Shown piece after piece: positions 1 through 49,297 of a stretch of DNA of 50,603 nt; within the stretch, counting starts at the first letter, position 1; the number at the start of each line of letters is the position of its first letter. Both the position numbers and the translations under genes were made by a program. The DNA lies in IMG/VR virus record IMGVR_UViG_3300044464_000092, positions 1 to 50,603 of that record, one strand, 5' to 3'. The notes beneath the pieces are model-generated. The model saw only the letters and a list, made by a program, of their open reading frames with translations, was not told the DNA's origin and made no database searches. This DNA comes from a virus.

Positions 1-240
1 CTGGGGGGCGCGAACCTGGTCGGCGCGAACCTGAGCCGCGCGAACCTGAGCCGCGCGAACCTGAGCCGCGCGAACCTGAGCCGCGCGAACCTGGGAGACG
101 CGAACCTGCGCGACGCGTACCTGCGCGGCGCGGACCTGCGCGGCGCGGACCTGAGCCGCGCGAACCTGAGCCGCGCGAACCTGAGCCGCGCGAACCTGGG
201 AGACGCGAACCTGGGCGGCGCGAAACTGGGCGGCGCGCGC
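1..240 (+). repeat. 15-bp tandem repeats encoding pentapeptides
   Basis: About sixteen near-identical 15-bp units, mostly variants of CGCGAACCTGAGC, run from the window edge to about 240. They encode the pentapeptide helix. Near-identical units at the very end of a contig are a likely cause of the assembly break and may hide an unknown number of missing repeats. Confidence 0.9.
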
Positions 241-561
241 GATGACCTGCGGGCCGTGCTCGACGCGGCGCCGGTGGAGGTCGCGGGACTACTCGCGGCG
301 CTGCGCGAGGGCAGCATCGACGGTAGTAAGTACGAGGGCGAGTGCTCGTGTCTCAAGGGGACCCTCGCGACCGTGCGGGGGTGCGGGTATCGCGAGCTCG
401 GCGGCGGAGCGCTGGCTCCAGACTCCCAGAGCCCGAGCGAGTTGTTGTTCGCGGCGATCGCGCCCGGCGGGACGCCCGAGGTCAACCCGGTGGCCGCGAT
501 CGTCGAGGGGTGGATCGTCGAGTGGATGCGCGAGCACGAGCAGAAGGAGCAGAGCAAGTGA
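1..561 (+). CDS. Pentapeptide-repeat protein, C-terminal part (5' truncated by window edge)
   Basis: The frame is open from the first base. About the first 80 residues are A(N/D)LXX pentapeptides ([15 protein letters not shown]), which in this family fold into a right-handed square beta-helix. The following ~100 residues are a non-repeat tail with '[10 protein letters not shown]', a cysteine-containing segment I recognise from phage pentapeptide proteins of this type. The stop overlaps the next start (GTGA). The missing N-terminus is probably the partial gene at 50504-50603. The role in the phage is unknown; DNA mimicry is known for other pentapeptide proteins (Qnr, MfpA) but is not shown here. 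Confidence 0.85.
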
Positions 562-4918: not shown

Positions 4919-5202
4919 CCGCATCCGAGCTGCGCCAGCTCGCGCGGCTCGCCGCGACCCTTGCGAGCGAGCTCGAATCCGGAGGAGCCTTGCGGCTGGG
5001 AATCGCCGCGTCTGGTCAGGAGGACCAATGCGACGAGGAAAGGCACAGCGAGCTCATGGACCATACCGACACGGGAAGATGTGGCGCGTCCACTTCGTCT
5101 CCGGATCCGGGAGAGATCGGAAGACGACATATGAGGTCTTTGCTTCGAGGGCAGACGCCCAGAAGTGCTACGACGACGCCACGGACGAGGCGCAAGGGCT
5201 AA
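4915..5202 (+). CDS. Possible small protein overlapping int
   Basis: GTG 4915 overlaps the previous stop as in the rest of the operon. The first ~37 residues ('ASELRQLARLAATLASELES') look like a genuine amphipathic helix. The rest lies in another frame inside the integrase N-terminus, where its composition loses protein character (long Arg/Thr/Ser runs). It may be a translated leader that couples to int, or a gene whose 3' end has been overwritten by int. Confidence 0.35.
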   Translation: MTASELRQLARLAATLASELESGGALRLGIAASGQEDQCDEERHSELMDHTDTGRCGASTSSPDPGEIGRRHMRSLLRGQTPRSATTTPRTRRKG

Positions 5203-6089
5203 CCGTGAGCACAGCCATCAAGGCATGGCTCGACGCGAAGCGAGCGCAGGGCCTCGCCGATCTCACCATCGTGGCGTACGAGCAGCGGATCAGGATGCTG
5301 CTTGGCTCGATGATTAACCGGCCCGTGCGATCAGTCGCGAACCGCGGACCCGAGCTCTATGCCGCCGCCCTGGAAGGTCGCAAGGCGGACTCGCACCAGA
5401 ACCTGCTCGTTGCGGGGAGGATCTGGGGGAAGTGGTGCGTGCGGCAGAAGTGGCTCCGCGCCAACCCATTCGCCGAGGTCGACCCGGTCGGCCGGCGGGT
5501 GCACGGCGCCGACAAGATCAGGCTGACCGTTGACGAGTCGCGCAGGCTCGAAGCGTGGTGCCTCGCGCATCCGGACGATCAGGGCGCGGTGCTGACGCTC
5601 GGCTACCTGTACCTCGGCACCCGTAACATGGAGCTCGCGGTACGCGACGTGCGCGACCTCGACGACGGCGTGCGGCTGCTGTTGATCGGCAAGGCGAAGT
5701 CGCGCGCCGGTCAGCGCAAGCTCGTGGTGCCGGTGGCGCTGGGCGCCCTGCTGCGGGCCCAGGTCGACGGACGTCCATCTGATGCGCCGGTGTTCGTCAA
5801 CGCTAAAGGGCAGCGGATGGGCAGCAACACGGCCCGCGACCACGTCAAACGCGTCTGCGTTGCCGCCGGGGTCCCAGAAGTCCCACCACAGGCGCTGCGG
5901 AGGACTCAGGCATCGCTTGCGATGGATGCGGGGGAGACTTCGCTCGCGGTGGCGCGGCACCTTGGGCAGGCGACCGGAGAAGCCCCGAAGGTCACAGCTC
6001 AGAGCTATCTCGAGCGCGGCTCGGTGGCGACGGCGCAGGGCGAGCGAGCGATGCGGGCGATCCGAGGGCGGACCGCGATTGGAAACTGA
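5028..6089 (+). CDS. int: Tyrosine recombinase (phage integrase)
   Basis: 353 aa. ATG 5028 has AGGAGG 4-5 nt upstream. Residues ~15-50 resemble an arm-type DNA-binding module ('WRVHF...VFASRADAQKCYDDA'), ~55-155 the core-binding SAM-like domain, and ~165-345 the catalytic domain. Visible catalytic residues are R199 ('LGTRNMEL'), a beta-hairpin Lys near 222-224, R291 ('QALRRT') and nucleophile Y327 ('AQSYLER'). The two usual histidines are Gln here: HxxR is Q288-A-L-R291, and 'LGH' is 'LGQ' (Q314). It integrates and excises the prophage; candidate arm sites follow the gene. Confidence 0.93.
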   Translation: MRRGKAQRAHGPYRHGKMWRVHFVSGSGRDRKTTYEVFASRADAQKCYDDATDEAQGLTVSTAIKAWLDAKRAQGLADLTIVAYEQRIRMLLGSMINRPVRSVANRGPELYAAALEGRKADSHQNLLVAGRIWGKWCVRQKWLRANPFAEVDPVGRRVHGADKIRLTVDESRRLEAWCLAHPDDQGAVLTLGYLYLGTRNMELAVRDVRDLDDGVRLLLIGKAKSRAGQRKLVVPVALGALLRAQVDGRPSDAPVFVNAKGQRMGSNTARDHVKRVCVAAGVPEVPPQALRRTQASLAMDAGETSLAVARHLGQATGEAPKVTAQSYLERGSVATAQGERAMRAIRGRTAIGN

Positions 6090-8405: not shown

Positions 8406-8950
8406 GGCGAGGTGTCCTTGGGCGCCGACATGGGCGCGAGTGATGAGCTGCGATGCGGGTCGTCGCGAAGGTGCTGATCGACGGTCTCTTTGAGCTGCTG
8501 GAATCGGATCGCTGCCTCGCGCTCATCACCGGCCCGATTCCAGAGTAGGCGGGTGACGACGCCGAGGGAGCCGAGTCCCAACATCAGGATCGCGATGGCG
8601 ACGCGGCGCACCGTCTTGTGGGTCCGCTCGAGCTCGGTGACGCGGCCGGGAAGCGCGAGCAGCGCGGCGGTGCCGTCCTCCATCTTGCGGTTCTCGCTCC
8701 GCTCGTCGAGCGCGCGCTTGGTAGCCAGCGTGATCGCCTTCACGAAATCCTCGACGGTAGCGGCCTCGCCCGGGATCCGGTTGCTGAGCCGCAGCGACTC
8801 GAGCTCTTCGGGCCGGAGCGGCCGGTCCAGTGTGATCGACGGCGCCGTGACCTCATCGCGCTCGCGTTGGCGCCGCCGCTCGCTGTCGTGACCGACCAGG
8901 TGGAGCGGCATGCGCCGGCCGTGCGGGGGCGTGGGGTCATCGTCGGTCAT
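8402..8950 (-). CDS. Single-pass membrane protein of the lysis module
   Basis: 182 aa. A charged N-terminal half with 'GRVTELERTHKTVRRVAI' leads into one membrane helix (residues ~125-147, 'VAIAILMLGLGSLGVVTRLLW') and a helical tail 'FQQLKETVDQHLRDD'. The coiled coil followed by a C-proximal membrane helix is similar in layout to XhlA/inner-spanin type accessory proteins. The assignment is by architecture and position only. Confidence 0.55.
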   Translation of the reverse strand: MTDDDPTPPHGRRMPLHLVGHDSERRRQRERDEVTAPSITLDRPLRPEELESLRLSNRIPGEAATVEDFVKAITLATKRALDERSENRKMEDGTAALLALPGRVTELERTHKTVRRVAIAILMLGLGSLGVVTRLLWNRAGDEREAAIRFQQLKETVDQHLRDDPHRSSSLAPMSAPKDTSP

Positions 8951-10895: not shown

Positions 10896-13800
10896 TCACC
10901 TCGGTGCGGAGCGACGGTCGGAGTCTGGGAGATAGGCCTGAGACAGGTTGGTGGAGCCAGCGATCGACGGCATCGGCGGCGAACCCGGAGGTGCAGTCGG
11001 AGCCGCCGCCGGGGCCGGCGCGAACGCGCCCCGCAACACGAATGCGTTCTCGGGTTCCATGCTCGGATGAAGGCTCACGTCGAACAGCAGTGAGTTCTGA
11101 ATTAACTGCCGGTATTCGACTGGTTTGCTTACGTCGGCCGCTCGCGCGATCAGTCGCTGCTGTGCCAGCGCGAACAGTCGCTGCCACACCACGCGCATCG
11201 TATCCGCGGCCTCGGGGGTTAGCGTGCGAGCGTGGAGCGCATCGAATGCCACGGTTGGATCGTTCGCTACTGCGAGCCGACGCCCCCACTGCAGCGCATC
11301 AGCCGCGGACGGGGTCCATTGCTGCTTCGTGTACGGATTCGGAGGCGGACCCTTTGGCGCGGTGTCGTTGAGGTGCTTGTACATCGCGATCATGTGCGCC
11401 TCCATCGCGTTGATGAGGTCGGGGTCCTTGAGGTCGCGCATCTCCTTGCTGACCTTGTCGACGACGAGCTGCGGGTTGGTAGCCGCCGCCGCCACCTCGC
11501 GCATGCGGACCGCAGCGAGCTGGGATGTCGAGGATCCCTTGGGCGCATCAGGCTCGCCGTCATCGAACGCCCGGCGCTGCAGCGCCGCGTTGACGCGCAA
11601 CCCGGTTGCCACGATCGTCGACTTGACGATCGGCTCGTTCCTAGCGACCAGGCCGAGCGATCGATCGACCGCGCTCGCGATGGCGTCCTTGGTCTTCGCG
11701 GCCAGCGCCGCGGCGCGCGATTCTGCCGTCGCAGGTACCCGCCCCATGAACCGACCGGTAGCAGCCTTCAACGCGCGGTACTTGAGGTACGCGCTCAGCA
11801 TCGGCCCGATCACCGGGATGTCGTGCGGCGATGGAACCCCAGGGACACCGAGATCGTGCGCAACCTCGACGCCTACTCCGATCGCCTGAGCCCCAGCGAC
11901 AGCCCGCGATCCGAGCCCGGTCCTGGGAGCGCCAGCTACGGGCGACGGGGGCAGCGCGGCGCGCGCATCCTCGGCCGCCTTGGTCGCGGCCTTGGAGCGG
12001 AGCGTCGCCTCGGTCTCGGTGGCTCGAGCTCGCGCATGGGCCGCATCGGCCTCTAGCTTGCCTTGCTTCGCATTCGCCATCCGCTGGCTCCAAGTCGGAT
12101 GGCGTGGCCCGGCCGGCTCGGGCGCAGCCGCAGCGTCGCCGGCTGAATCATCCGCTGCCCGTGCGATCCTCGACACCGTCTTGCGGCTCGCCTCATCCTC
12201 GGCGGCGCGGAACGCCTGAGCAGCCTCTTTCGCCGCGGCCGGCGCGACATCGCCGATCGCCTCGGTGAGCTCGGCGGCGGCCTTTTCGATCCGCGTCACG
12301 ACCTTGGCCATCGCCGCAACGTCCTCGACCGCCCCCGGGCGCGCGCCGACCGCGGTCATCTGCTGCTCGATGGCCTTGGCCTCGGCAACCGCAGTATGCT
12401 GCTCGACCGTGCTCGTTGCCGCCGCAGCGCGCTCGAGCGCTGACTCGTGGGCGTCGGCGAGCCGGCGCAGCGCCATCGGATGCCCACGCTCGACTCGCTG
12501 CACCGCGTAGCCGGGCCGGGCCGCCTTACGCGCGATCCACTCCGCCATTGCCTGGCCCTGCGCGCGCGCCTCGTCTCCGGCCATCGCCGAGCCCTCGTAG
12601 AAACCGGCTCCGGGCCCCGCGAACCCTTCGTTCCACGGCGGGGTGATGCTCTTGAGCGGCTCGCCGCTGTCGAGACGCGCCTTGGTGCCGCGGAGCAAGG
12701 TCTCGAGGTCGTCGGCCGGCGCCGCGGCCCCCCGGGGGGATTTCATCTCCCACCAATCAGGGCGAGCGTCTCCGATCTTGGCGTTCGCGCCGTTGAACTT
12801 GCGCTCGGCGAGCCCCGCTTTCTCCAGCCCTTCCCATACGCGCTCCGCGCTCGGAGAGCGCGAGAAGTCAGAGGCCAGTGGAACTCCATGCTCCTTGATG
12901 AGCGCGTCGTTCAGATCGCGATACATCGCGTTTGCGAGTCCGCGCCCCCTGAGGTCGGGGTCGATCGTCGTGTACTTGACCCGGTAGACGCCCTGCGCGT
13001 CACGCACGGCCTTCAGGTGACCGGCCTCTCCGGTCGGCGACGTCAACTTGATCTTGATCTCGCCATTGCCTGGCTCGATCTCAGGCCTGACGCCAGAGTC
13101 GCCGAAGATCTTGGATGGCGCGGTTTCGGACGCGGCGCCGACCTTGACCGGTGCGGCAGACTGGATCTTCGCTCCCCCATCGCTCAGCGCCCGACGCTGC
13201 GCAACGATGGCGTCCCATTCGTCGGAGAGCTGCTGGTACTCCGGAGTACCCGACTGCATCGCGTCGAGCTTGTTTCCGATCTCGGCCTGGCGCGCGTCGA
13301 GCTGGCGCAGGTCGGCCGGCCCATGTCGGAGCACGTCATCTGCAGCCGGCTCGGTACCGGTCGACCACTTCACCTTGATCGGCGCGTCGGCCTCGACGGC
13401 TGCAGCGAGCCGATGACGGCCATCGGTTACGGTGATCTTCCCCTTGGGCGAGACATTGAGCTTGATCGGATCGCGCTGTCCCTCCGCGATCTCCTGCTTT
13501 GCCTTGGCGATGCGCACCTCGTCGGTGGCGCCGCCGGGTGGCTCGAAGTAACCTTGCTCCGCGATGTCGCGCGCTGGCACGGTGCGATCCAGGTAGTTAT
13601 CGGTCGCGCGCTCGTGCGCTCCGATCTCGGCGTGGTCCGGGATGCCGGCGGACTTGGCCGCGTCGGATTTGGCCGCGACCTCGCCAAGCGACGCCGATGG
13701 CTGGGTCCCGCGGGCCGGGCGTAGCTCACGGGTTACATCGAGCTTGGGCACCTCGGGCGGCAACACGTCGGAGCCGATCGCGATGCGAGCTGAGGCTTCG

Positions 13801-25750: not shown

Positions 25751-27019
25751 TCACGAGCTCGCCTGGATACGGGCGACGCCGTTCCAGCCGGGGGCGGCGC
25801 AACCGAGGTTCTGATACGATCCGAGGCGAGCCTCGACGCTATCCTCGTTCTGTGACGGCTGCAGACGCATGCCGGTCGCGGCCTCGCCGGTCCAGTTGAT
25901 CCACTCGCCGGTGTGCCAGATGCGCCACGTGTCAAGTTGGAGCGCGTAGAGCCGGTTGCTCGGGCAGTTGCGATCCGGGTAGATCTCGACGTTGCGCCCA
26001 CCGCAGATCGCCTTGTAGCCCGAGAACCCGACGACGACCTCGCCGTTCGGGCCTTCGACCTCTCCGGTGATGTCCTTCAGGATGCGGACCTTCGAATTCG
26101 AGACGATCTCGAGGTCGGCGAGCGACTCGGGGTTGGCGAAGATGTGCGACGTCTTGCCCCCGTACTTCGTGATCTTCGAAACGAGCTTGATGATGACCGC
26201 GTCGAGATCTCCAACGCCAGTCCCATCGAGGAACACGCCACCGAGTCGCACCGGAGAAACGTTACGGGTGATGTTGTTGAAGCTCGCGGCCAGCAGCGTC
26301 GCGCGGTCCGTTCCGGCGGGAAGCCAGTCGGCGAGCCCCGAGAGGCACGCGTTGTACTCGCCGCGCTGAAACACGAACGAGCTCGTGGTGATGCTAGCGA
26401 TCTTGGTTCCGAGGTTGTCGGCGATCGTGACGGTGCCGGATTCCTCATCGACCGCGGTCACCTGCGTGGTGTCGCCGTTGTCGAGCAGAGAGCCGCTGCC
26501 GTCGGTCGTGGAGAACTGCAGGATCTGATCGACGGTGAAGTTGAAGCAGCTCGCGTTGTCCGTGAAGGTGAGCGTTGTCGTGTTCGTCGATGCGATCGAC
26601 AGCTGACCGATCGATCCGCCCTGGGTTCGGTACAGACGTCGGCCGATCTTCTCGCCGAGGGACTTGAACCCGCGATCGAACTCCTTCAGCGCCTTCACGA
26701 AGGCGTCGGACTTCTTCTCGGTCGAGTACAGCAGCTCGTTGTTGATCTGGATGCGCTGGTACTGCTTCATCCGGAAGAGGATGAAGTCGAGGTACTTCGA
26801 GGTCGTCGAGTCGCTCATCGCGAACCCGTAGTCGGCGCTCGCGCCTTGCGGGTTCGCGTACTCGACGGGTTGGATGTACCGCCGGCCGCCGGCCTGGTAG
26901 CGCTCCTTTTGGAGGAATCCCAAAAGCGGGTTCTCCCCGAACGATTGCTCGAGGATCTTCTCTTCAGTGTAGACGTCCTTGAGGAAGGCGTCCTGATTTG
27001 CGATCGTAAAAGCGGTCAC
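25751..27019 (-). CDS. Major capsid protein
   Basis: 422 aa. The order and content fit podoviral HK97-fold capsid proteins: N-terminal 'NQDAFLKDVYTEEKILEQSFGENPLL', 'YIQPVEYANPQGASADYGFAM', then the spine-helix region 'LLYSTEKKSDAFVKALKEFDRGFKSLGEKIGRRLY' (read in parts), 'SPVRLGGVFLDGTGVGDLD' and C-terminal 'YALQLDTWRIWHTGEWINW'. Residues ~135-215 are a beta-rich insertion that may be an I-domain. It lies between scaffold and decoration genes. Confidence 0.8.
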   Translation of the reverse strand: MTAFTIANQDAFLKDVYTEEKILEQSFGENPLLGFLQKERYQAGGRRYIQPVEYANPQGASADYGFAMSDSTTSKYLDFILFRMKQYQRIQINNELLYSTEKKSDAFVKALKEFDRGFKSLGEKIGRRLYRTQGGSIGQLSIASTNTTTLTFTDNASCFNFTVDQILQFSTTDGSGSLLDNGDTTQVTAVDEESGTVTIADNLGTKIASITTSSFVFQRGEYNACLSGLADWLPAGTDRATLLAASFNNITRNVSPVRLGGVFLDGTGVGDLDAVIIKLVSKITKYGGKTSHIFANPESLADLEIVSNSKVRILKDITGEVEGPNGEVVVGFSGYKAICGGRNVEIYPDRNCPSNRLYALQLDTWRIWHTGEWINWTGEAATGMRLQPSQNEDSVEARLGSYQNLGCAAPGWNGVARIQASS

Positions 27020-34838: not shown

Positions 34839-35131
34839 CTCAGCATCTCCTCGTGCAACCGGTCCAAAGCCGCGCGCCAGCGCTTCTCGCAGGGCTCGAG
34901 CATCTTGCGAGCCGCGTCGAGGTCGATCGCCGCGGCCTTGAGTTCGGCGTACGCAGCAGCTTCCGCGGTGCCAGCTGGGCCGACTGTCGCGTGTCGTCTA
35001 GTGGATGGCGAGAACACCGTGCTCGGCCCCGGCGCATCCTCCGGATCATCGACGTCGCACGAGCATTTCACGTCCTCGGCGCCGGCATACATCACGAGGT
35101 CGCAGAGCGAGTTGTTGGGGTTGTGCTTCAC
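34835..35131 (-). CDS. Hypothetical protein
   Basis: 98 aa from GTG 35131 (GTGA overlap). The N-terminal part has three Cys ('SLCDL...VKCSCDVDDPED') and an acidic patch; the rest is a helical hairpin ('AAAYAELKAAAIDLDAARKML', 'RWRAALDRLHEEML'). No family recognised. Confidence 0.6.
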   Translation of the reverse strand: MKHNPNNSLCDLVMYAGAEDVKCSCDVDDPEDAPGPSTVFSPSTRRHATVGPAGTAEAAAYAELKAAAIDLDAARKMLEPCEKRWRAALDRLHEEMLR

Positions 35132-35811
35132 GTGGTCTCCTGGGGCCAGTCGTAGTCGAGCGAAGCCACGGCAGCCGCCGCAGGTTGCGTCGTGGGCGGC
35201 GAGACCGATGGAGGGGCGGTCCCAGCGGCGCTCACGCCTGCGGCGGCTGGCAGCGAACTGGGCGCGTCCGAGTCGATGAGCCCCGCGAGGAGCTCCATCT
35301 GCGCGGTGAGGTTGCCGAGCTCTTCGACCGCGACGCCATCGAGGATCCACACGAGCGCTGCGCAGGTCGCCGCCTGCAGGCCAGGCTCCTTGCTCTCGCG
35401 GGGCCCCGCGACGTTGAGCACGGCGACATGGTTGCCGTGCAGCCAGTCGAGCAGCGTGCCGCGCAGCGCTGGTGTCACCTGTCCCCGGCCCCGCGGAAGC
35501 ACGAGATGCTTGCACGGCTTGCGCTGGCGCTTGCACTCGCGCGCCGTGAAGTCGCTGCCGCCCGTGAGCTTCTCGGCGTACGACACGATGAGCGTGGCGT
35601 CGCTGTCCTGGACGTTGAGACGCGTTCTGATTCCGTACTCGCGGCTCGAGCTCTGGCGCATCTTGGACGCGTAGATCTCCGGGACGCGGCCATCCTCGGC
35701 CTTGTAGTCGGCGGTGGCCCAGCCGCCATAGCTCAGCCCGAGCCGGATCGCTGCGTCCATAGCGCCGCGATCCGATCCGGTCTGCCCGCCCGAGACGATG
35801 GTGATGGTCAT
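35128..35811 (-). CDS. YpsA / putative molybdenum-cofactor carrier-like protein (SLOG superfamily)
   Basis: 227 aa. 'TIVSGGQTGSDRGAMDAAIRLG' (shown in part), 'GGWATADYKAEDGRVPEIYA', 'REYGIRTRLNVQDSDATLIVS' and 'GGSDFTARECKRQRKP' reproduce the conserved blocks of the 'putative molybdenum carrier' family. This family belongs to the SLOG Rossmann fold that binds nucleotides or nucleotide-derived ligands. Residues ~170-227 are a low-complexity Ala/Pro tail. A role in sensing or sequestering a nucleotide ligand, possibly against host defence, is inference. Confidence 0.75.
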   Translation of the reverse strand: MTITIVSGGQTGSDRGAMDAAIRLGLSYGGWATADYKAEDGRVPEIYASKMRQSSSREYGIRTRLNVQDSDATLIVSYAEKLTGGSDFTARECKRQRKPCKHLVLPRGRGQVTPALRGTLLDWLHGNHVAVLNVAGPRESKEPGLQAATCAALVWILDGVAVEELGNLTAQMELLAGLIDSDAPSSLPAAAGVSAAGTAPPSVSPPTTQPAAAAVASLDYDWPQETT

Positions 35812-37589: not shown

Positions 37590-37601
37590 TGCGTCAACCT
37601 G

Positions 37602-37623
37602 ATCGTGGCAAAATTACCACGAT
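37602..37623. promoter_or_regulatory. Operator-like inverted repeat in an AT-rich gap
   Basis: A perfect dyad, half sites ATCGTGG and CCACGAT with an 8-nt AT-rich centre (CAAAATTA), lies 13 bp before the GTG at 37589. The gap 37590-37691 is clearly AT-richer than the rest. I see no convincing sigma-70 promoter on either strand, so the dyad may be a repressor site, an attenuator hairpin or a packaging-related site. Confidence 0.5.
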
Positions 37624-37691
37624 TTCTGTATTGATGGTGGGTACAATTATTAATTCGCAACCTGAATCATACTCGATAGTTGCGCGGACGA

Positions 37692-37886
37692 TCACCGGTT
37701 AGCGGTCCTCAGAATGTTGTTCGCGACGTCATCCAGCGCGTCCCGCTCAGCGTCCACCTTGCGAGCGCCGCCATCGTGCTGCCGGATCGCCGCGCGCTCG
37801 GTCCACAGCTCGGTGACGTCGTCGAGCGTGCGCCCGCTGCGCTTCGCGAGGCGCTGCAGCTGGTCCTGGAGCGCGCTCCACCTCAC
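37692..37886 (-). CDS. Small helical hypothetical protein
   Basis: 64 aa from GTG 37886 (GTGA overlap). All helical, with 'ALQDQLQRLAKRSGRTLDDVTELWTERAAI' (in part). Possibly DNA- or protein-binding; no family recognised. Confidence 0.6.
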   Translation of the reverse strand: MRWSALQDQLQRLAKRSGRTLDDVTELWTERAAIRQHDGGARKVDAERDALDDVANNILRTANR

Positions 37887-38083
37887 CGCAGCAGCCCCAG
37901 CAGCCGATCGAGCGCTGGGACCAGGTGAGCGAGCGCGGCTTCGTCCGTGGCCATTCCGCTCGAACCCACGAGGACCGAGGCGCTCCACCCGCACTCGGGA
38001 TCGTGCACGCACACGACCTGGAAGTGGTAGCCGCTCTCGTCGTGGACCGAGAACTCCTTGCGCGTCGACTCGAGCTTGATCAT
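37883..38083 (-). CDS. Hypothetical protein
   Basis: 66 aa from ATG 38083 (AGGTG 5-6 nt upstream); an in-frame ATG at 38107 would add 8 residues. 'FSVHDESGYHFQVVCVHDPECGW' is strand-rich, followed by 'DEAALAHLVPALDRLLGLL'. No family recognised. Confidence 0.6.
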   Translation of the reverse strand: MIKLESTRKEFSVHDESGYHFQVVCVHDPECGWSASVLVGSSGMATDEAALAHLVPALDRLLGLLR

Positions 38084-38182
38084 CGCAGCACCTAGCACGT
38101 GATCCATCGTTGCTCGTACCCGTAACCATTGGCTGCGTCCGCGGCGGCCTCCTTCTCGTTTCCGAGGTGGTGCCGTCCAGTT

Positions 38183-38350
38183 AGGCAGCTTGACCTACGA
38201 TCCGGGGTGCACTACCTTGGATCGTGAGGGAGCGGTCAAGACTTCGGTCGGACGGCTTCACCTGAGACACTCGGTTCGCGCCGGGTGTCTCTCCTATCAA
38301 CGAACAGAACCATCTGGCATCAAAGATGCACGAAATGGTAACCTGTTGGA
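38183..38350 (+). ncRNA. Structured RNA candidate in a gene-free region
   Basis: Four consecutive hairpins on the plus strand: (1) CTTGACC...GGTCAAG (7 bp) enclosing ACGATCC...GGATCGT (7 bp); (2) GAC-TTCG-GTC, a C(UUCG)G-type tetraloop; (3) GAGACAC-TCGG...CCGG-GTGTCTC, 11 pairs with one G-U; (4) a three-step hairpin AACAG/CTGTT, ACCAT/ATGGT, GCATC-AAA-GATGC. The G-U pair and the UUCG loop are favourable only in the plus-strand RNA. The first part also contains TTGACC-17-TACCTT, so a promoter with an operator dyad is an alternative for that portion. No known riboswitch, ribozyme or tmRNA pattern is recognised. Confidence 0.45.
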
Positions 38351-38374
38351 ACTATTTGCGCCGGCTCTGGATGG

Positions 38375-38527
38375 CTATGGGTCCTCCCATCCCCGGAGGG
38401 CTCGCGCACTATCCCAGTCGAGCGGGCCCGCCACGGCCGGATCCTGCGCACCAACGCGCGCAGCAGTCCGCCAGCCCTTCAGGTACGCGTGATACCGGTT
38501 CTCCACGTCGATTCGCGCGCGAATCAT
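38375..38527 (-). CDS. Very small hypothetical protein
   Basis: 50 aa from ATG 38527, overlapping the previous stop (ATGA). 'VENRYHAYLKGWRTAARVG' and 'PLDWDSARALRGWED' look like genuine helical protein. Too short for many gene finders. It is the last minus-strand gene before the structured region. Confidence 0.6.
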   Translation of the reverse strand: MIRARIDVENRYHAYLKGWRTAARVGAQDPAVAGPLDWDSARALRGWEDP

Positions 38528-38883
38528 CGCTCCGTCCTCCCTGGCCTGGCGATCACCTGACGACGCAACTCCACGACCTGATCCGCGTGCGCCATCGCCA
38601 GTTCGGCCACGTATTTGTCCAGCAGAGATCCCTTGTATTGCTCACGCAGCCGCGCGAGCTCTGCCACGTACGCCGCGGCGTAGATCGCGACCTCCACGCC
38701 TTCGCGCGGCTCCGTCATCGTCGGGTAGCGAGAGACGAACTTGCGGCAGTCACATGGCGGAGCGTGGCGGTCATCGCAGTACTCCTGGCCTACCGGAACT
38801 CCATTGCCCCTTCCGACGTCGTGGAATACCCGATCGTGGCCGCACTCCATGCAGGAGTCTGGGTCGGTTGATGGTGCGATCAC
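38524..38883 (-). CDS. Zinc-binding hypothetical protein
   Basis: 119 aa from GTG 38883 (GTGA overlap). N-terminal 'CMECGHDRVFH' and 'CDDRHAPPCDC' give a Cys/His-rich site. The rest is a helical hairpin ('AAAYVAELARLREQYKG', 'MAHADQVVELRRQV'). No family recognised. Confidence 0.65.
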   Translation of the reverse strand: MIAPSTDPDSCMECGHDRVFHDVGRGNGVPVGQEYCDDRHAPPCDCRKFVSRYPTMTEPREGVEVAIYAAAYVAELARLREQYKGSLLDKYVAELAMAHADQVVELRRQVIARPGRTER

Positions 38884-39140
38884 TTCCCCGCCTCGACGCA
38901 CGCGACCCACCAATCCATCGCCTGCTCCGCTCGCCGCCACGCGCGGTACGCGTCGAGCTCTAGCCATGCGACGTCCCGAGGCACGCACAGGTTGGAGTAG
39001 CGCCACGGGACCTCTGGGCGTACCGGCGCGGCGCCGCAGCGCGCGATCGCCTCGACACCAGCGTCCGGCGTGGCGCGAAGGTTGTCACCGCACCCTGACG
39101 CGATCACTGAAAACAACGCTAACACTATGAGTTCACGCAT
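38880..39140 (-). CDS. Lipoprotein
   Basis: 86 aa from ATG 39140 with GGAGG 5-6 nt upstream. 'MRELIVLALFSVIASGC' is a type II signal peptide with lipobox A-S-G-C (C17), followed by 'GDNLRATPDAG'. The mature part is ~70 residues with three more Cys. A surface lipoprotein in this place could act in superinfection exclusion or lysogenic conversion. The 'CGDN...PDA' start is a style I know from Myxococcota lipoproteins, which hints at the host. Confidence 0.75.
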   Translation of the reverse strand: MRELIVLALFSVIASGCGDNLRATPDAGVEAIARCGAAPVRPEVPWRYSNLCVPRDVAWLELDAYRAWRRAEQAMDWWVACVEAGK

Positions 39141-42095: not shown

Positions 42096-43453
42096 GACAC
42101 CCTCGTCAGCGGCCCAGACCACTCGGCAAACACAGTTCCGGTCCTGCCGTTGCTGTTTTTGAGCACGCACAGCTGGATCTGCGCGCGATGCTCTTCGGAT
42201 GTCGGCTCGAACCGGTGGCCCTCCCAATCGGGGTCCCAGTCGATTCCCTTGACCGGAGAGCCGTACTCTGAGCCGCGGTAGAGCCCCACGACGCATTTCG
42301 CGCGCTCCTCGAGCGATCCGCTCTCTCGTAGGTCTGATAACTGGGGGCGCTTGTCGACGCGCTGCTCGAGCTGGCGATTGAGCTGCGACATGACCACGTA
42401 CGCGATCTCGTCGGCCTTGGCCGCATCCGCGAGCGTCGTCACGATGTCGGTCAATGCCTCGTGCCGTGAGTAGCGCTGCCGAGGCGGTGACTTCACGAGC
42501 TGCACGTAGTCGACGATCGCTACTCGCGTCCCGTTTTCTCGACGGTGCCGGCGCACGCTGCGCACGACCTCGTCGGCCGTGATCCCGCTACGCCCATCGA
42601 CGAGCCAGCGCCGGCCCCGAAGCGCGACGTGCGACCTCGCGATCTGCGAGCACTGCCACGCGGTCAGGCTCGCGTTGCGCAGCGACTCCGCAGGCACCTC
42701 GCTGGTCCGAGCGATCGTCCGGTCTGCATACGCCTCGACCGTGTCCTCGAGCGAGAACAAGTGCACGCCATCGCCAGCTGCCGAGCACGCGTCGGCCGTC
42801 GCGAGACCAAGGCTCGACTTTCCCATCCCTGGCCTGGCCGCGACGATGCTCACGATGCTCGGTTGCCAGCCGCCGAGTTTCTCGTCGAGCTTTGCGACCC
42901 CGGTGGGGAATCCGGTCATGGTCCGCGCGCCGGTCGCGCGTTCCTGCGCGATCAGCTCGAGCTGCTTGAATCTCCGCTGCACGAGCGCGGAGATCGCCGT
43001 CGCTGAATCAGGCTGGTCCTCGTCGATTCGCGAGAGCACCGCCATCGTCGCCGAAAGCAGCTCTCCGCCGCCAAGCTCGCTTGCATGCTCGAGTAAATCG
43101 GCGAGCGCGATCCGGATCCTCCGACCGAGCGAGGCCTCGCGGATCTGGCGCACGTACTCGACGGCATTCGCCAGCGTCGGCATGTGCAGCGCCAGCTCGC
43201 CGAGAAGCGCGAAGTCGATCGCGTCGCCGAACCCGTCGCTGGCGAGCTGAGCCTGCACCGTCACGACGTCGATCGGCCTATTCTTGTGCTCCAGGTTCCT
43301 GATTGCTTTGAAGATTGCTCGATGTTTCGCGTGGTGGAAGTCATCGCATTCGAGCCGCGGGAACTGCGCCAGCGTCGACGGCTCGACGAGGATCGCTCCG
43401 ATCACGGAGGCCTCGAGCGAGTGGATTGCCTGTATTTGTTCGGGTGAGTTCAC
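42092..43453 (-). CDS. dnaB: Replicative DNA helicase (DnaB-type)
   Basis: 453 aa from GTG 43453. N-terminal domain 'QIQAIHSLEASVIGAILVEP' to ~150 (DnaB-N), then the RecA-fold ATPase with Walker A 'AARPGMGKSS' (residues ~205-214), 'HLFSLED' (H1a), Walker B 'VAIVDYVQLV' and 'LRESGSLEERAKCVVGLYR' (arginine-finger region). It unwinds phage DNA at the fork. The preceding gene is the likely initiator/loader, so the phage has its own replisome entry but no own polymerase. Confidence 0.93.
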   Translation of the reverse strand: MNSPEQIQAIHSLEASVIGAILVEPSTLAQFPRLECDDFHHAKHRAIFKAIRNLEHKNRPIDVVTVQAQLASDGFGDAIDFALLGELALHMPTLANAVEYVRQIREASLGRRIRIALADLLEHASELGGGELLSATMAVLSRIDEDQPDSATAISALVQRRFKQLELIAQERATGARTMTGFPTGVAKLDEKLGGWQPSIVSIVAARPGMGKSSLGLATADACSAAGDGVHLFSLEDTVEAYADRTIARTSEVPAESLRNASLTAWQCSQIARSHVALRGRRWLVDGRSGITADEVVRSVRRHRRENGTRVAIVDYVQLVKSPPRQRYSRHEALTDIVTTLADAAKADEIAYVVMSQLNRQLEQRVDKRPQLSDLRESGSLEERAKCVVGLYRGSEYGSPVKGIDWDPDWEGHRFEPTSEEHRAQIQLCVLKNSNGRTGTVFAEWSGPLTRVS

Positions 43454-44259
43454 AGGATATTCGTCTTCTTTCCAGTGGTTACGTTGTTGTTCTGACTCCA
43501 CGAACCGTTCTGACCGCTCGTAGGCGGCCGGGCGCTGCGAAGCCAGTTGCGCCACCGCGCTTCCCAGTCTTTGCAGGTCTCGCCCTTGGCTCGTGCCCAG
43601 TCCGCCAGCTTCGCAAGCTCGAGCTCCACGCTCACCCCTCGCCTGGAAGCGTCAAGCTCTGCTGCTCGCGTGGCAGCTGACTCTGACGGCTTCCAGTCCT
43701 CGGGTAGCTGGACTGCGGCCTTGCGGGGCCTGGTTGCCTTGGGTGTCGGTACGGTGTCCGGTACCAGCGTGAGGGAGGGAGCCGGATTTTCGGCGACCGC
43801 TCTCTCTCTGATCTCCTCTCCTCTCCTCTCCTCTCCTGTGTGACTGTCCGGACAGTCACGTTTGGTCACGTCTACGTCCGGACACTTTCGTGACATCGAG
43901 GATGATGAGGAGTCCTCTCGGGACCTTGCGCGCTGATTGCGTTTCCGCTCGGCCTCCGTCATCGGCCGCTTCCCCCAGTCGTCGTCCCACCCGCGGATCA
44001 CGAAATCGTGGCCGTCCTGGACCAGCAAACCTGTCCGGACACATCGTGACACCCCTTCCGCGGCTTGCTCTGTTGTGAGCATCAATACATCTGCGAGGTA
44101 GTCCGGATCGAAGTGATCTGCCGAGATGACACCGTTTTGGTCGACCTCGGCATTGCGGCGCAGCGCGAACTCGAACACCTGCCGACCGAGGTTGCCGGCT
44201 CGGCGGATCCTCGGATGGGAGTCGAGCGATGCGCTCACCTTGCACCAACTGCGTGCCAT
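43450..44259 (-). CDS. Replication initiator / helicase-loader-like protein
   Basis: 269 aa. N-terminal ~100 residues 'SWCKVSASLDSHPRIRRAG...FEFALRRNAEVDQNGVI' and 'ADVLMLTTEQAAEGVSRCVRTGLL' read as a winged-helix replisome-organiser domain. A charged, Ser-rich linker follows, and the C-terminus 'WARAKGETCKDWEARWRNWLRSA' has the 'W...W..WL' signature of phage replication proteins of the O/DnaD type. It probably recognises the origin and loads the helicase. Confidence 0.7.
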   Translation of the reverse strand: MARSWCKVSASLDSHPRIRRAGNLGRQVFEFALRRNAEVDQNGVISADHFDPDYLADVLMLTTEQAAEGVSRCVRTGLLVQDGHDFVIRGWDDDWGKRPMTEAERKRNQRARSREDSSSSSMSRKCPDVDVTKRDCPDSHTGEERRGEEIRERAVAENPAPSLTLVPDTVPTPKATRPRKAAVQLPEDWKPSESAATRAAELDASRRGVSVELELAKLADWARAKGETCKDWEARWRNWLRSARPPTSGQNGSWSQNNNVTTGKKTNIL

Positions 44260-48979: not shown

Positions 48980-49297
48980 ATGCTCGACGCCAACGCTCTC
49001 GCCTACCTCCCCGCTCCGAACGGCCTGACCTTCGGCGCCGTCGCCGTCGTCGTCCTGGTCGTCGACGCTCGCCAGCTACGCGCCCACGGTCGCCGCGTGG
49101 TCCCCCGGTGCCACCCGCGGCTCGTGCGGGACACCGAGCAGGATCGCCAGCGCATGGTGAACGTCCTGGACCGCGCCGCTGGTCGCCCGTGCGCCACCCC
49201 GGTCGCGGGCCCGAAGCGCCGGTGGGTCGCCGCTCTCGCCTCGGTGGCCGTGATGCTCGCGGTCGTTGGCGCCGCGGTGATGGCGGTGGCGCTGTGA
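48980..49297 (+). CDS. First early gene, C-terminal membrane anchor
   Basis: 105 aa. ATG 48980 follows the promoter directly with no Shine-Dalgarno site. Starts with an apolar segment 'GLTFGAVAVVVLVVDA' (~13-28), then a basic middle part, and a strong C-terminal helix 'VAALASVAVMLAVVGAAVMAVAL' (~82-104). Tail-anchored membrane protein of unknown function, expressed first after infection. Confidence 0.6.
   Translation: MLDANALAYLPAPNGLTFGAVAVVVLVVDARQLRAHGRRVVPRCHPRLVRDTEQDRQRMVNVLDRAAGRPCATPVAGPKRRWVAALASVAVMLAVVGAAVMAVAL

Follow-up and report, generated by a model that had tools for sequence, protein, structure and literature searches.

The phi29-type pRNA is a phage packaging RNA with a three-way junction, and the put-type RNA antiterminators of HK022 are pairs of hairpins that lie near early promoters and act in cis. 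The gap in T4 gene 60 is 50 nt long. The bypass element of that gene is built of matching take-off and landing codons around a structured gap (PMC11194080, PMC5009743). GOLLD and ROOL are ornate RNAs of phages and prophages that are several hundred nucleotides long, are widespread, and often lie near tRNA islands; many GOLLD members exceed 800 nt (PMC12286853). The element analyzed here is shorter than GOLLD and ROOL and lies in the 50,603-bp virus record of an uncultured phage, with a GC content of ~67%, the whole of which is called the window below.

Between ~6.4 and 48.2 kb, nearly all genes of the window are on the minus strand and closely packed (Table 1). ARAGORN found no tRNA or tmRNA genes in the window. 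The terminase had no match in the named phage collection, and the phage group is without a close relative there. We note that a gene at 35128-35811 on the minus strand, in the phage early region, strongly matched cpYpsA (circularly permuted YpsA SLOG family, PF12694), and homologues of the cpYpsA protein are present in several related phages. Moreover, the left end of the window (1-260) carries 15-nt repeats of the GCGCGAACCTGAGCC type in tandem, which may point to a pentapeptide-repeat protein.

Table 1. Features of the element and of its setting in the window
Feature	Position	Strand	Basis or remark
Whole structured element	38157-38353	+	MFE and shuffle statistics
Pa, UCC/GGA	38161-38163/38348-38350	+	Pairing probability 0.3-0.6; may close whole element
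P0 domain	38165-38263	+	13-pair arm enclosing P1, P2, and P3; inverted repeat I1
P1+P2 (first hairpin of the first-pass annotation)	38190-38239	+	z -4.45 on plus, -2.75 on minus
P3/H2, GAC-UUCG-GUC	38240-38249	+	Sequence
P4/H3	38264-38291	+	12 pairs including two U-G; pair probabilities 0.9-1.0
P5/H4	38303-38347	+	Three tiers of 5 pairs
Promoter-like TTGACC-17-TACCTT	38190-38218	+	Low confidence; 5th best weight-matrix site in window
Headless 3' end of small gene, HLGNEKEAAADAANGYGYEQRWITC then TAG stop	38092-38169 (codons 38169-38095)	minus	In-frame reading
Flanking gene, 50 aa	38375-38527	minus	Upstream in minus-strand cluster; ORF and codon score
Flanking gene, 66-74 aa (start 38083 or 38107)	37883-38107	minus	Downstream in cluster; ORF and codon score
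Integrase-like gene	5079-6089
Major head, portal, and terminase genes	25.8-33.1 kb	minus
Terminase	31.2-33.1 kb
Replication initiation protein and DnaB-like helicase	42.1-44.3 kb

The element folds far better than chance. The first-pass annotation proposed four hairpins at 38183-38350, and all four were found on the plus strand. Those 168 nt folded at -73.6 kcal/mol on the plus strand (z -4.86, with none of 200 shuffles as stable) and at -59.9 kcal/mol on the minus strand (z -2.68). The proposed left edge did not hold, as position 38183 cuts a helix and leaves the closing arm (38165-38178/38250-38263) outside. The ~195 nt from 38157 to 38353 make a better unit, with an MFE of -92.0 kcal/mol on the plus strand (z -5.97, 0 of 500 shuffles as stable) and -79.7 kcal/mol on the minus strand (z -4.64). 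Across the record, none of 336 sampled window/strand segments reached a z of -4. A GC-corrected sliding fold of the whole window ranked the segment at 38161 with the most stable plus-strand segments, though not first, as a stretch antisense to the major head gene came ahead of it. No segment of the window has a lower GC-corrected folding energy than that stretch (26721-26930), and in two relatives (G002 and G003) low-energy segments fall in what is likely the head-gene region, the gene assignment being putative. Rfam 15, with GOLLD, ROOL, pRNA, and the group I and II introns among its families, gave no match in the window at the gathering threshold. The best match below threshold, the vertebrate snoRNA SNORD17, scored 19 to 20 bits against the 45 needed and was put down to chance. 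The proposal of an unknown structured RNA is upheld on statistical grounds, as z is near -6 and Rfam gave nothing better than chance. The element is probably a small structured RNA; structure by itself is no proof of RNA function.

The predicted architecture is compact. In the model, 38157-38353 would form a pair of three-way junctions, one nested in the other, with Pa closing the whole, and the P0, P2, P4, and P5 helices are firm. The P0 arm pairs 38165-38170 with 38258-38263 and 38172-38178 with 38250-38256 across a single U.U, with pair probabilities mostly of 0.9 to 1.0, and the P0 domain as a whole has a z of -4.98 on the plus strand and -4.32 on the minus strand. Within it, P1 (TTGACC/GGTCAA, 38190-38195/38234-38239) has a pairing probability of about 0.5 and faces a competing alternative pairing. 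Inside P1, ACGATCC/GGATCGT (38197-38203/38219-38225) is prolonged through two tandem G-U pairs into the 13 pairs of P2 (38197-38209/38213-38225), with GUGCAC at the apex. P3 would sit flush against both P1 and P0, but it is weak and is not the favored state in the energy model; were the RNA to start near 38225, a longer alternative form of H2 would arise and three hairpins would be left. P4 (z -5.44 on the plus strand, -3.88 on the minus strand) abuts P0 without a linker and is joined to P5 by 11 nt of single strand. Finally, a UAGG/CCUA pseudoknot between J1 (38179-38189) and J2 (38292-38302) is possible but would arise by chance with an estimated likelihood of ~25%, and we do not claim it.

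Among the records searched, the element is restricted to one lineage. The sole other carrier found was a near-identical contig, IMGVR_UViG_3300044787_000021, in which the element is 100% identical. That identity is uninformative, however, because the surrounding 1.2 kb (37732-38927) also shows zero differences between the two contigs. A nucleotide search of phages and plasmids gave either no match or a chance match of 25 nt, and the exact H3 hairpin was found among viral contigs only in the one near-identical contig. Matches to a 16-mer of the linker came from 10 contexts, all unrelated, and were discarded. When the flanking genes at 37883-38107 and 38524-38880 were used as bait, just IMGVR_UViG_3300044787_000021 was recovered. 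The terminase, in turn, has relatives at 30 viral loci, with 33 to 100% identity over most of the protein apart from two short matches. In the full records of the ~30 terminase relatives, the covariance models R1 and R2, which are built on one distinct sequence and could miss a strongly diverged homologue, found the element only in that contig. It was not conserved at the syntenic place in relatives, and no relatives of the terminase or of cpYpsA were found in prokaryote genomes.

A neighboring gene appears to have been disturbed where the element sits. The gap between the flanking genes (38108-38374, 267 bp) had been described as gene free and exceptional in so packed a genome. About 205 bp of it is clearly noncoding, and from 38170 to 38390 neither strand shows a coding signal, but a startless coding-like tail on the minus strand reaches 38092. 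Moreover, by a crude gene caller the gap is unusual but not unique in this record. No start codon opens the HLGNEKEAAADAANGYGYEQRWITC frame, and its TAG stop lies 8 nt ahead of the ATG at 38083, a spacing to be expected in a packed operon. With a codon score of 0.364, HLGNEKEAAADAANGYGYEQRWITC is on a par with real gene ends; 2.9% of stop-free off-frame segments score as well. No intact homologue of the gene tail was found. Since this startless tail lies beside the element, a small gene seems to have been beheaded there, exactly where the structured element sits.

The reading that we put first, tentatively and short of an even chance, is that a structured RNA cassette, recently gained and specific to this lineage, replaced the head of the small gene or interrupted it, with the plus strand mildly favored. 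The absence of the element and its flanking genes from the other records searched is consistent with a recent lineage-specific cassette, and the headless tail points the same way. We infer that this phage lineage acquired the ~195-nt element recently, by whatever route, and that the cassette took the place of, or broke into, the 5' part of a minus-strand gene. Replacement or insertion is the simpler account and is preferred to an intron or bypass. The element would most likely act as a folded RNA, in which the P0 arm bears P1 and P2, and possibly P3, and is stacked beside P4, while P5 forms a third arm. As a working model, it may be a small phage RNA that is transcribed from the plus strand against the minus-strand operon and that may act either in trans or as an antisense RNA on its own operon. 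A recognizable target was not found within the phage, as matches of the element elsewhere in the window, with both strands compared, did not exceed 12 nt, which is near chance.

The choice of strand is less clear than the fold. A G-U pair and the UUCG loop had been taken to favor the plus strand, and we find that strand mildly favored, but the argument is weak because the minus strand also folds well beyond chance. The plus-minus difference over 38157-38353 is 12.3 kcal/mol and is equaled by 7.8% of shuffles. Four internal G-U-type positions speak for the plus strand (170-258, 204-218, 205-217, and 271-284, by the last three digits) and one for the minus strand (C314/A334). Tandem G-U pairs in P2 and U-G pairs in P4 lengthen those stems on the plus strand only, P2 and P4 are clearly better there, and the cUUCGg loop points in the same direction. 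H3 and H4 together have a z of -5.76 on the plus strand versus -3.48 on the minus strand, whereas for H4/P5 taken alone the minus-strand fold is slightly the better (-16.5 versus -13.3 kcal/mol). Our estimate for the plus strand is a little over one-half.

The proposed promoter does not stand out against shuffles. The first-pass annotation had proposed that TTGACC-17-TACCTT is the element's own promoter, with CGATCC/GGATCG as operator. A plus-strand site as good occurred in 10.6% of gap shuffles, and in 20% when both strands were counted, so neither the site nor the proposed operator is above chance, and the site is no evidence of a promoter. The shuffled gap is AT-richer than the window. No terminator-like site or U-tract was found in the gap, including after 38353 at the 3' end of the element. 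We note that the AT-rich gap 37590-37691 holds a terminator-like plus-strand site at 37601-37624, a hairpin with a T-rich stretch behind it; shuffles yield about one such site by chance.

The strongest rival would place the element on the other strand. It could be a cis-acting intercistronic element in a polycistronic minus-strand mRNA, between the genes at 38375-38527 and 37883-38083, where it would control polarity, processing, stability, or elongation in the manner of an attenuator or antiterminator. Such an element would need no promoter of its own, as its two neighbors are on the minus strand, like nearly all other genes between 6.4 and 48.2 kb, and both the minus-strand fold (z -4.64) and the greater stability of H4 on that strand are in its favor. 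P2 and P4, however, fold more weakly than on the plus strand, the gap lacks a terminator-like U-tract, and the element is not kept at the syntenic place in relatives. We regard this reading as rather unlikely.

Somewhat more doubtful still is that the element is palindromic DNA without RNA function, either an inserted, nonautonomous mobile element or a patch of quasi-palindromes that template switching produced, and that the small gene was truncated by it. Palindromes would give unusually strong folding of both strands, as is seen here, and the headless tail adjoins the element. Moreover, other strongly structured and mutually unrelated gaps in related phages, as in G003 and G005, suggest rapid turnover. 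Against an origin as a MITE or as an insertion sequence derivative, the element is a single copy in the window and in the relatives searched, its ends match only as UCC/GGA rather than as long terminal repeats, the candidate target duplication is just 3 bp (TTT), and TnpB was not found in the window. Strongly structured gaps recur in the group (G003 12363-12584, G005 49016-49187, G011 42895-43506, and G004 8438-8582), and those inspected (in G003, G005, G002, and G004) differ from the element in sequence and layout. Such phages either amass unrelated palindromic inserts or carry fast-changing RNA elements.

Some gaps in relatives have features of their own. G003 (L041:12351-12591) and G007 (L047:11300-11552) share a homologous, ~240-nt quasi-palindromic region between divergent genes, whose two ends mirror each other, gene starts included. 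In G003 the region has z values of -6.6/-4.1, and 11 of 54 predicted pairs still pair through two-sided changes between the two phages. In G005 (L045, 48995-49190), iterated GTGGTTCC/GGAACCAC palindromes lie just upstream of a DEAD-helicase-like gene and are possibly an origin or operator array. Finally, downstream of a primase-like gene in G002 (L038, 12775-12887), a 24-nt sequence that includes the palindrome GGATCGCGATCC occurs twice as an exact direct repeat, and the two copies are likely operators.

The remaining readings are weaker. That the element founds a new class of compact phage RNA, marked by nested three-way junctions, a self-complementary GUGCAC apex that might permit a homodimer, an anti-operon strand, and a gene-beheading cassette, is a long shot. 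That the hairpins came together by chance in a nonfunctional intergenic remnant undergoing decay is very improbable; the sole homologue is identical and evidence from conservation is absent, but a z of about -6, 0 of 500 shuffles as stable, and the lack of a comparable sampled segment in the window all speak against it. Least probable is an intervening sequence, a small intron or bypass of ~194-197 nt closed by the Pa stem and joining MGGPIAIQSRRK (38390-38355) to EKEAAADAANGYGYEQRWITC (38157-38095) in a minus-strand gene, for although the 3' ORF is headless and a closed RNA domain sits between two reading frames, no Rfam intron matched, the putative 5' exon MGGPIAIQSRRK has noncoding codon usage (-0.25), no relative of the joined peptide turned up in the phage collection, neither the tail nor an alternative join matched PHROGs or Pfam, and inspection of the frames revealed no identical take-off and landing codon pair that would bring a coding-like 5' ORF back into frame.

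Should it prove to be transcribed, the element would be a phage RNA, compact and structured, that belongs to no described family. One-lineage cassettes are invisible to comparative RNA discovery, and the sole handle on them, until transcript data or diverged relatives come to hand, is single-sequence statistics together with clues from gene context, such as a headless neighboring gene. The record has no RVT_1 or Cas12f1-like_TNB match that would indicate a retron or TnpB guide RNA and no PF07751 match that would indicate an Abi_2/AbiF-type RNA system, nor did PADLOC match the latter among the neighbors. Like T4 gene 60, the locus has a structured gap upstream of a 3' frame without a start codon, but its gap is ~195 nt, a matching codon pair was not seen, and the 5' frame is not coding-like. 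Like the put RNAs of HK022, it has tandem hairpins in phage sequence, but four or more stems lie within a gene cluster and no promoter is shown. The phi29-type pRNA is similar in size and has a three-way junction, which here is only modeled, but the element does not lie beside the packaging genes; in neither comparison is there an Rfam match. From GOLLD and ROOL the ~195-nt element differs in that it has no Rfam match and that the window holds no tRNA gene, and it resembles them in kind: like them, the element is an intergenic phage RNA candidate with no protein product and an elaborate predicted fold.
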